Assembly: GCF_024362525.1 (NCBI RefSeq)
Contig: NZ_CP101458.1
Location: 1,426,001 to 1,490,000, forward strand
Reading direction: 5' to 3'
Length of the DNA stretch: 64,000 nucleotides
Source: Natrononativus amylolyticus
GTDB lineage: Archaea > Halobacteriota > Halobacteria > Halobacteriales > Natrialbaceae
The stretch's first letter is position 1; the number at the start of each line of letters is the position of its first letter. A program made the translations under genes and the position numbers. Below the pieces are notes generated by a model. That model saw only the letters and a program-made list of their open reading frames with translations. It did no database searches and was not told the DNA's origin. Of this stretch, positions 45,760-48,897 are shown in pieces.

Positions 45760-46122
45760 CTACGAGAGTGACGTCCCGTCCTCGTCTTCTTCGGCCACCT
45801 CGAGGTACTTCTCCACGAGTTCGAAGTACGTCGACGCCGAGACGTCTCCCTGCCGCTCGTCGTACTCGAGGAGTTTCGCGTCGTGGAGCATCGGGAGATC
45901 GTTGTGGTGCAACCGGATCGAAACGCGTTCGATCCGTTCTTCGGGGACGTTGTCGGGCGGATCGTTCGTTTCGCGGGCGACGATCGCGACAGCCAGTTCG
46001 CGAACGTCGACGTGGTCCCGGTCACGAAGCTCGTAGAGCACGTACCGGCGTCGCCTCTGCGCGAGCAGGCCGAACAGCTCGTCGAGTGAGAGTGGACCCG
46101 AATCGCTGTCAGTGTGAATCAT
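45760..46122 (-). CDS. DUF7344-type winged-helix regulator (120 aa)
   Basis: The protein contains a helix-turn-helix with the haloarchaeal pattern SLDELFGLLAQRRRRYVLYE LRD, then VDVRELAVAIVARE and IRLHHNDLPMLHDAKLLEYD. This is the family of small regulators seen beside many surface and membrane genes. An inverted repeat encloses its TATA region, consistent with autoregulation. The ATG at 46122 is chosen; upstream in-frame sequence is low-quality. It converges on the cystathionine gene with 11 bp between. Target unknown. Confidence 0.75.
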   Translation of the reverse strand: MIHTDSDSGPLSLDELFGLLAQRRRRYVLYELRDRDHVDVRELAVAIVARETNDPPDNVPEERIERVSIRLHHNDLPMLHDAKLLEYDERQGDVSASTYFELVEKYLEVAEEDEDGTSLS

Positions 46123-46304: not shown

Positions 46305-46610
46305 TCACTGTGTCGGCTCGATGAGCAGTGATCCGTCTCGTTCGATCGAGACGCGGCAGTCCGCGACGGTGATTTCGATCGGTCCGTCGATTTCGATCGA
46401 TTCGTCGCACCGCGCCGCGTACAGCGCTTCGATGAGTTCCGGATCCGTTTGTGAATACAGCGGCGTCATCTCCAGGGGATCGATCCCCGAGATTCGCGCT
46501 ACTGCCGAAATGATATCGACACTCACCGATTCGGTCATCGGAGGGTGCAGGACGTACGATCCCGTCCCCGGATCGTACTCGAGGCTTGGGTTAGCTGTAT
46601 CGGGAGTCAT
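46305..46610 (-). CDS. HalOD1 output-domain protein (101 aa)
   Basis: The protein has the Halobacterial output domain 1 pattern: TESVSVDIISAVARISGIDP, LEMTPLYSQTDPELIEALY and SIEIDGPIEITVADCRVSIE with a closing RDGSLLIEP. Stand-alone HalOD1 proteins are abundant in haloarchaea and are thought to be signalling outputs. The ATG at 46610 is favoured over the longer frame from 46643. A TATA-like box (minus-strand GCTATAAAC) lies near 46706-46714. Function unknown. Confidence 0.78.
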   Translation of the reverse strand: MTPDTANPSLEYDPGTGSYVLHPPMTESVSVDIISAVARISGIDPLEMTPLYSQTDPELIEALYAARCDESIEIDGPIEITVADCRVSIERDGSLLIEPTQ

Positions 46611-46833: not shown

Positions 46834-47637
46834 TCAGTCGCTCGTTCCGGCGACGGGCCGGGACTCCGCGAGGTGTCGTTCGTACAGGGAACTCGCCCAG
46901 TCGATCGCGTTCGGATCGTCCGTCTCCACGAAGACGCGTGCGATGCCGTTCTCGTCGTGTGCCGCCATCCCGATTCTGTCGTCGAAGAGAAACAGTTCGA
47001 ACGGCACGTCCGGGTGGACGTGGACGTGAAACCGACCGGTCTCGAACGCCTCGAGCGCCTCGCGTTCGTACTCCTCGAGAACGATGTCGATGATCTCCTC
47101 GTCGAACACGGCTTCGATCTCCATGCCGTCGAGCATCTCGCGATGGGCGACGTCGACGTAGAACGGAGAGATAACGGTCGAGAGGATACCCAGCGTGTCC
47201 GAGCTTTGGATCAGTTCGATGATTCGCCGAACGGAGAAGTGTGGCTGACGGGGCTGGGGCAGGATCACGTCGGCCTCGCTGAAGTGCTGGACCGGAACGT
47301 CGTCGACGTCGACCAGGTTTAAAAACGGCTCGAGTGAGAGCGCGGAGCCGACGCGGTTCCTGTACGCCTGCGTCTCGTCGGCGACGAACTCCCCGACACC
47401 GGTGAGTTCGTACTTCCCGTTCGACTGCTGGAGCAGGTTGAGTTCCAGCAGGGTGTTCGTCGCCCGGTGAACCGTCGACCGCGAGATGTCGAGCGAGTCC
47501 TCCAGGTCGCCGGCGTCGGCCGGCGCCGACCGAAGCTCCGCGAGGAGCGCAGCCCTCCGTACCGACTCCATGAGAACCTCGTGAGTGGAGGCGTTCGGGC
47601 CGACAGCCATTTCGGGTTCCGATTCGTGGTCAGGCAT
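46834..47637 (-). CDS. FilR1-type winged-helix transcriptional regulator
   Basis: The 267-residue protein has an N-terminal winged helix (RRAALLAELRSAPADAGDLE, LDISRSTVHRATNTLLELNL) and a C-terminal FilR1-like (methanogenesis-regulatory) domain with SADVILPQP-type and HVHPDVPFELFLFDD segments. FilR1 regulators sense small molecules, and many haloarchaeal copies act locally. It lies 29 bp downstream of the terpene-synthase-like gene on the same strand, so they are probably co-transcribed. The ligand is unknown. Confidence 0.78.
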   Translation of the reverse strand: MPDHESEPEMAVGPNASTHEVLMESVRRAALLAELRSAPADAGDLEDSLDISRSTVHRATNTLLELNLLQQSNGKYELTGVGEFVADETQAYRNRVGSALSLEPFLNLVDVDDVPVQHFSEADVILPQPRQPHFSVRRIIELIQSSDTLGILSTVISPFYVDVAHREMLDGMEIEAVFDEEIIDIVLEEYEREALEAFETGRFHVHVHPDVPFELFLFDDRIGMAAHDENGIARVFVETDDPNAIDWASSLYERHLAESRPVAGTSD

Positions 47638-47666: not shown

Positions 47667-48656
47667 CTACTTCAGCCCCTCGCTGGCGAGGTGATACTCG
47701 AAGACGGTTTCAAATCCGTTCAGATACGCGGGGACGTCGACCGTCTCTATCTCGGGGGCGAGTCGCTTCGCAACCCTGTACTCGTGGTGCCACTGCCTGA
47801 AGAACCGCGACACGACGTCGTGTTCTTCGATCGCCTGTGAGACGACGGCGACGTGCTCCTCGGACGGGTCTCGCTGAATCGCTCGAAGGTCGTCGATCGA
47901 CACCAGATCGCGCTCCAGCGCCGAGATGACGACAGCGGAACTGCAGTCCCCCTCCGTGAGTTCCCGCCGCCAGGTCGTGATCCAGTTACCGATGCGAGCC
48001 AACCGCTGGGCGTGGGTTACCAGCCGTCGCAGGGTCGAGAGATCGCTCCTGTCGAACGCCGGCGCGAAGAGGAGGTCGATATCGGCGTAGACGAACACCA
48101 TCATGTTGTTGACGTCGTAGCGACAGAGTTCGTATTCGGAGACGAGGTCGAGGTGCTGGTTCGCGAGCGCGGAGTACTCGATCGCGGTGACGACCTGTTT
48201 CAGGTCGAACGACAGTATCTCGTCGAACTCCGAGAGACGTGGACTCCCCCCGATCGTTTCGGAAAACGCCGCCCAGGTCTCTTGGAGGAACGCGAGCAAC
48301 TCCGGTCGGACGCCGTCGCGATCCAGGTTCGCCGTCTGGTGGTCGAACGGGATTTTCGCCGCCTCCTCGAGCGTCTCGCGGTCGCCGTCCCGTTCGGCGA
48401 CGTCGTCGACGACCGCGACGAAGATGGAGGCGAACAGTTTGGCATCATGAGTCTGTCGAACGTGGAGCGGTTCGACGCAAGAGAGCCTGAACTCGGGAAA
48501 CAATCGAGAGAGCCACCGCCAGAGGTACCTGTCTCGGCCGTCGACGATTCGGTCGTAGTCGTCGACCAGTGAGACGACCGAATCGGGGAGTTCTCGTTCA
48601 CGAACAGCTAGGGATGGGTCCTCGTCGACGTCGGACCACCGACCCTCGTAACTCAT
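47667..48656 (-). CDS. Class I terpene-synthase-like protein
   Basis: The 329-residue, mostly helical protein shows the class I terpene cyclase motif set at the right spacing. An aspartate-rich DDVAERD lies at residues 84-90, Arg179 is followed by Asp181 (CRYD), and an NSE-type triad N-x3-T-x3-E lies at 224-232 (NWITTWRRE) followed by LTEGD. Bacterial terpene synthases have nearly the same length and place the phosphate-sensing Arg about 46 residues before the NSE Asn; here it is 45. In them the motifs bind three magnesium ions and the diphosphate of farnesyl or geranyl substrates. A TATA-like CTAAATTTG lies about 33 bases before the ATG at 48656. Fold and motifs are inferred by eye; the product is unknown. 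A divergent squalene/phytoene-like enzyme is the alternative. Confidence 0.62.
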   Translation of the reverse strand: MSYEGRWSDVDEDPSLAVRERELPDSVVSLVDDYDRIVDGRDRYLWRWLSRLFPEFRLSCVEPLHVRQTHDAKLFASIFVAVVDDVAERDGDRETLEEAAKIPFDHQTANLDRDGVRPELLAFLQETWAAFSETIGGSPRLSEFDEILSFDLKQVVTAIEYSALANQHLDLVSEYELCRYDVNNMMVFVYADIDLLFAPAFDRSDLSTLRRLVTHAQRLARIGNWITTWRRELTEGDCSSAVVISALERDLVSIDDLRAIQRDPSEEHVAVVSQAIEEHDVVSRFFRQWHHEYRVAKRLAPEIETVDVPAYLNGFETVFEYHLASEGLK

Positions 48657-48897
48657 CGAATAGCCCACGATTGGCGAGACGCAAATTTAGGTGTATCGCC
48701 GCGTCGACCCGCAGCACCCGTATCAGGTTCCGGCCCCCTCTCGAGACGGGTGTCAAGAAACTCGCACATCTGCTTCTCCAAGACTCGCAATCCCGTGTTC
48801 CGAGACGAAACGCCCGTCGCGCAGTGCTATCCGACACGGACGAAGAATCGACGGATTCTCGCGGTACGGACGGGCAAACCGCCCGTTCGGCGGAAAA

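Follow-up and report, generated by a model that had tools for sequence, protein, structure and literature searches.

A terpene-synthase-like gene family of archaea that mostly lies near signalling genes and encodes putative class I terpenoid synthases

Introduction

Archaea are built on isoprenoids, and the described proteins closest to the haloarchaeal gene considered here are the bacterial class I terpene synthases (PF19086; T-muurolol synthase, hydropyrene synthase and Sat1646/Stt4548 among them), with which it shares the alpha fold and the length. Class I terpene synthase motifs have been defined previously (PMC10563020, PMC7192455, PMC9543850). The bacterial enzymes carry DDxx(D/E) and NxxxTxxxE in this order, together with a sensor Arg, an effector Gly and a C-terminal Arg-Tyr pair, and their genes adjoin P450 and prenyl-synthase genes. 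Trans-prenyl diphosphate synthases (PF00348) also have the alpha fold and are marked by two DDxxD motifs, whereas the archaeal family combines DDxxE with an N-T-E triad.

Canonical terpene synthases of the same superfamily and host class as the archaeal family occur on plasmids of the hyphal haloarchaea Actinarchaeum and Halocatena. The Actinarchaeum halophilum plasmid (NZ_CP071308.1; L135/L155, positions 6305-12007 of L135) encodes two of them back to back, scoring 169 and 164 bits against PF19086, each with an N-terminal extension (one is annotated as SRPBCC family) and its own polyprenyl synthase, and the pair is bordered by transposase and integrase genes. This locus, in an archaeon that grows as hyphae, is a genuine haloarchaeal terpene cluster. 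A third such terpene synthase, annotated 'SRPBCC family protein' and again paired with a polyprenyl synthase, was found on a Halocatena marina plasmid (NZ_CP110250.1; L145, 3512-5896). These canonical synthases differ from the family described here in their N-terminal SRPBCC-type extension, their NDxxSxxxE motif and the adjoining polyprenyl synthases, and they look to have been acquired laterally.

The signalling side of the comparison concerns the Bat and HalOD1 proteins of haloarchaea (PMC5847659), which are recurrent neighbours of the family and have no homology to it. HalOD1 is an output domain of unassigned function with more than 2,000 sequences (PMC5847659), and the control of cell shape in Haloferax volcanii involves one such protein, DdfA (PMC10869688). 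A literature search that left subscription journals and preprints largely uncovered returned no description of a class I terpene synthase family in archaea, priority being uncertain because of that coverage, nor of a HalOD1 or Bat protein linked to a terpene-synthase-like gene; automated 'terpene' clusters have been reported for Halomicroarcula genomes. Here we describe a new, previously unannotated archaeal family, found in Halobacteria and several methanogen groups, that is enriched beside signalling genes.

Results and Discussion

The gene and its product

Within the window (the whole stretch of 64,000 nucleotides that was analysed), the terpene-synthase-like gene occupies 47667..48656 on the minus strand, with the CDS at 47670-48656 and the stop codon at 47667-47669, and encodes a protein of 329 aa that ends in YHLASEGLK. 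Reading frame and length agree with those reported by an earlier, sequence-only reading of this DNA. Translation starts at ATG48656 (329 codons, then stop), and an in-frame GTG at 48668 would lengthen the protein by 4 residues. A TATA-like TAAATTT (48684-48690, minus strand), found by eye about 31 bases 5' of ATG48656, would fit this start and a nearly leaderless transcript. Family members in public records on haloarchaeal plasmids were named 'hypothetical protein' in all six of the annotated records.

Fold and profile comparison

The sequence-only reading had taken the product for a class I terpene-synthase-like protein and had named a Pfam search and a structure comparison as checks. Against PF19086 (Terpene_syn_C_2) the window protein scored 18.6 bits (E 0.0017), a match over nearly the whole profile (4-179 of 199) that lies below the curated cut-off of 23.7 bits, while about 30 relatives exceed it (35 bits, for example) and the Actinarchaeum canonical synthases reach 164-170 bits. 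The profile was matched by 41 of 45 aligned relatives (best 2.3e-8), and among 194 genomes from the class Halobacteria 29 held a match above the cut-off, one of them through two canonical synthases. The AlphaFold2 model of the window protein, built from a 45-sequence alignment, is all-helical (pLDDT 93.9, pTM 0.91), and its top Foldseek matches were solely alpha terpenoid-synthase folds (probability 1.00, with a modest TM of 0.5-0.6), a mixture of prenyltransferases and terpene synthases that included T-muurolol synthase. The fold expected by the earlier reading was recovered. The model of a methanogen relative (pLDDT 91.5) matched almost exclusively terpene synthases in the PDB, the best being bacterial Sat1646 (TM 0.65/0.71, rmsd 3.8).

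Most of the top Foldseek matches of the window model were FPP/GGPP synthases, as would be expected of a prenyltransferase or prenyl diphosphate synthase in which this fold serves to couple isoprenoid units or to prenylate another acceptor. We regard this reading as very improbable, as the second motif is N-x3-T-x3-E, the second DDxxD of PF00348 synthases being absent from the window protein, and the methanogen branch matches terpene synthases in structure. Pfam scans of the window protein and its relatives gave no PF00348 match, and hhalign aligned just 57 columns of the family with prenyl diphosphate synthases, none of them within a motif. In comparison, 275 columns were aligned with 12 canonical synthases (E 1.6e-5, probability 79%) with both metal motifs in register, and 271 columns when methanogens were added to the family profile. 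At the level of sequence profiles, the comparison favours bacterial terpene synthases over prenyl-diphosphate synthases as likely kin of the family.

Metal-binding motifs and missing recognition residues

The predicted first metal-binding site is the aspartate-rich stretch D84 D85 V A E88 R D90 (48387..48407, minus strand), where predicted helix 63-89 ends; the second, a triad of the NSE/DTE type with the sequence N224 W I T T228 W R R E232 (47961..47987, minus strand), falls in predicted helix 203-234. The positions of these helices in the model agree with an arrangement in which the two motifs face a single cavity. Residues 179-185 (RYDVNNM; 48102..48122, minus strand) lie at a predicted helix break that resembles the G1/G2 break of terpene synthases. 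Motifs, motif order, motif helices and G-type break are shared with the bacterial enzymes. All of the residues singled out by the sequence-only reading (DDVAERD at 84-90, R179, D181 and N224-x3-T228-x3-E232) were found where it placed them, and its numbering mirrors that of selinadiene synthase, in which the sensor and effector residues are R178, D181 and G182 (PMC9018054).

Among 96 relatives D84, D85, N224 and E232 showed no variation wherever they were aligned, position 88 was E or D and position 228 was T or S; R210, R221, R231, D151, D194, D237 and W229 were also invariant. The DD, N, T and E residues remained invariant in an alignment extending to Methanosarcina at 16-23% identity. Judged from these alignments, the motif set of the 47667-48656 protein is not a product of chance, because its metal residues are invariant or nearly so in the 96 relatives. 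Single-sequence searches of the PDB with the window protein gave no match, and profile matches were weak and for the most part short; such weak single-sequence scores might be expected of an unrelated all-helical protein whose motifs and fold are alike by coincidence. We consider this extremely improbable in view of the invariance across the family, the relatives above the Pfam cut-off, the two confident models and the profile alignment.

The remaining recognition features gave a different outcome. Position 179 is R in 36 of the 96 relatives, T in 32 and H in 9, and D181 is kept in 68; Y180, D181, N184 and M185 are mostly conserved. In the profile alignment the RR of the canonical synthases falls opposite D181/V182 and their effector Gly opposite M185, so that neither a conserved Arg pyrophosphate sensor nor an effector triad was found (R179 in 36/96, no Gly, D181 in 68/96). 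The earlier reading therefore holds for the presence of Arg179 and Asp181 in the sequence and not for Arg179 as a conserved sensor; its class I identity stands on Pfam matches in relatives, the alpha fold and the metal motifs. All 12 canonical proteins carry an Arg-Tyr pair near the C-terminus, which is absent here. The residue after N224 is Trp, replacing the Asp of (N,D)D(L,I,V)x(S,T)xxxE found in bacterial class I synthases; the Asp there is no metal ligand, and the ligands N224, T/S228 and E232 of the triad are kept, as is DDxx(D/E) with D84/D85 invariant and E or D at 88. Two of four recognition features are therefore retained, both of them Mg2+ ligands, and judged by these the protein would act in the manner of a class I synthase. 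Because neither the sensor Arg with its effector triad nor the Arg-Tyr pair was recovered, we name the protein 'terpene-synthase-like', a variant and not a canonical member. With this family the terpene synthases would gain a branch without the sensor Arg, a residue thought to be general.

Predicted activity

We think it probable, on the basis of motifs, profiles and models, that the product of the window gene is a class I terpenoid synthase belonging to this previously unannotated archaeal family, and we infer its putative catalysis, substrate, regulation and product as follows. D84/D85/E88 and N224/T228/E232 would together hold a cluster of Mg2+ ions, to which a C15-C25 prenyl diphosphate would bind through its diphosphate group and there be ionised. 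The helical cavity would then steer the resulting cation towards a terpene, a hydrocarbon or an alcohol, of cyclic or linear form. Conserved residues elsewhere in the protein, R221, R231, R41 or R210 for example, may stand in for the sensor Arg. The substrate could be supplied by the cell's three polyprenyl diphosphate synthases; the genome holds three PF00348 genes, none of them near the window gene.

The missing effector Arg and Arg-Tyr pair could also mean poorer closure of the active site, and the protein could then be a linear-product or hydrolytic enzyme that converts a prenyl diphosphate to a prenyl alcohol or alkene and is not a cyclase. This appears distinctly unlikely to us, and ordinary class I synthases also give linear products.

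Genomic neighbourhood and association with signalling genes

In the window, the terpene-synthase-like gene is followed 29 bases downstream by a gene for a FilR1-type regulator (HVO_A0261_N and FilR1_middle; 46834..47637, minus strand; Pfam E 6.5e-30 and 1.2e-21), its probable operon partner, and then by a gene for a stand-alone HalOD1 (halobacterial output domain 1) protein of 77 aa (46305..46538, minus strand, ATG46538; PF18545 E 3.1e-17; genome C1:1472314-1472535). A gene for a DUF7344 protein (45760-46122, minus strand; E 5.6e-21) adjoins that for HalOD1. The order of terpene-synthase-like gene and FilR1-type regulator was also found in Halorussus and at loci L043 and L053, and the window gene, which the tree places as sister to the Natrialbaceae block with L053 as its neighbour, keeps the HalOD1/FilR1 arrangement of L053. 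In Natrialbaceae the gene is flanked by a metallo-beta-lactamase-fold gene on one side and cystathionine gamma-synthase on the other, its place is conserved near cystathionine gamma-synthase, L21e and Rpb4, and EF1-beta is also near in several loci, the window among them. A recent mobile gene was rejected for Natrialbaceae given this constant place beside housekeeping genes.

Elsewhere, as in the window, the neighbours are HalOD1 single-domain proteins, PAS-GAF-BAT-HTH_10 (Bat-type) regulators, PAS histidine kinases or FilR1-type regulators. Genes within 3.5 kb of 114 distinct members (near; 787 kb) were compared with those farther out (far; 728 kb), using models that were seeded with neighbours and counts that are not independent of descent. 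HalOD1 was found 39 times near and 4 times far (binomial p 6e-8), Bat-type regulators 35 and 6 times (p 7e-6) and PAS histidine kinases 38 and 7 times (p 5e-6). FilR1-type regulators, with 9 near and 6 far around the same 114 members, showed no significant enrichment and were rejected as generally enriched neighbours, though the ordered trio recurs in 6 loci. As the models had been seeded with neighbours, an independent yardstick was needed for HalOD1: Pfam identified 28 HalOD1 in the window's genome, which corresponds to 5.5 expected per 787 kb against the 39 observed. After thinning to 86 sequences of less than 88% identity, 54 had a signalling neighbour, and the HalOD1 linkage underwent at least 9 changes on the tree. 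The arrangements are several: terpene-synthase-like gene, FilR1-type regulator and HalOD1 in this order at 6 distinct loci, the window included; HalOD1 and Bat genes running divergently from the terpene-synthase-like gene (HalOD1<Bat< >TPS) at 6 loci; Bat and HalOD1 both upstream and in the same orientation at 5, with Bat>HalOD1>TPS among them; and Bat and HalOD1 downstream (TPS>Bat>HalOD1) at 3. A PAS histidine kinase lay within 3.5 kb in all four Methanosarcina-side members of the tree.

In this the family differs from the bacterial synthases and their P450 and prenyl-synthase neighbours. A biosynthetic cluster was rejected, since neither a P450 nor a prenyl synthase recurs as a neighbour, and no tailoring genes were found near the window gene. 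Close to the homologue in Halobellus limi lies a protein with squalene-oxidase repeats, which was rejected as a class II cyclase: no DxDD was seen in its sequence, and sulfatase, AglF and sugar-nucleotide genes surround it.

That HalOD1, Bat-type regulators and PAS kinases recur beside the family, variously arranged and in methanogens too, can also be interpreted as the mark of a protein of class I fold that serves its PAS/GAF/HalOD1 neighbours as prenyl-diphosphate sensor or binding partner, keeps the diphosphate and metal site and has little or no cyclase turnover; the missing sensor Arg and Arg-Tyr pair and the lack of a biosynthetic cluster are in line with this. We regard it as unlikely, as all Mg2+-binding residues persist at 16-23% identity, where drift would be expected of a pure binder, and motif decay, possible as it is, is rare and was seen in one degenerate methanogen copy.

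The most likely reading is that the window protein is a class I terpene synthase, active and under the control of a sensor, and it may be a source of new terpenes, as the earlier reading proposed. The adjacent regulator, of the FilR1 type here and a Bat-type PAS-GAF-HTH_10 regulator or PAS kinase in relatives, probably governs its expression, so that the product would probably be condition-dependent in role and not part of a biosynthetic cluster. The sensor and regulator neighbourhood of the family suggests a regulated or signalling terpenoid, and the linkage provides a testable handle on an open question of archaeal signalling. Neither the archaea-wide family nor its link to sensors figures in the sequence-only reading. 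A further and quite doubtful step would be a signalling module, extending from Methanosarcina to haloarchaea, in which the enzyme's terpenoid is sensed by the adjacent PAS/GAF regulator or PAS kinase with HalOD1 in the output path; if true, it would amount to a terpenoid messenger or autoinducer system.

Distribution of the family

A family member was present in 62 of 199 related genomes, and a scan of 84,980 species genomes gave 92 loci, nearly all from Halobacteria among the 80 listed. Genera with members include cultured type strains (Haloarcula, Natrinema and Haloferax marinum). A phylum-wide search placed members outside Halobacteria in Methanohalobium-like genomes, in another group that resembles methanogens (L164-L167) and in Methanosarcina (L171 included), where 11 of 31 genomes possess the family, a few of these as fragments. 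A match in a bacterial MAG (L128) clusters with Methanohalobium in the tree and may be misbinned. A viral origin or spread was rejected after the window protein found no match in a single scan of viral contigs.

Loci L170 and L169 (genome G499) and the Methanosarcina loci L186, L189 and L191-L192 hold broken or shortened copies, and such copies in some methanogen genomes suggest frequent loss. The methanogen-side relative at L173 (5198-5980, minus strand) has lost both metal motifs and is a degenerate or repurposed member. Two tandem family copies were found in one genome (G083) at L039 4826-7208.
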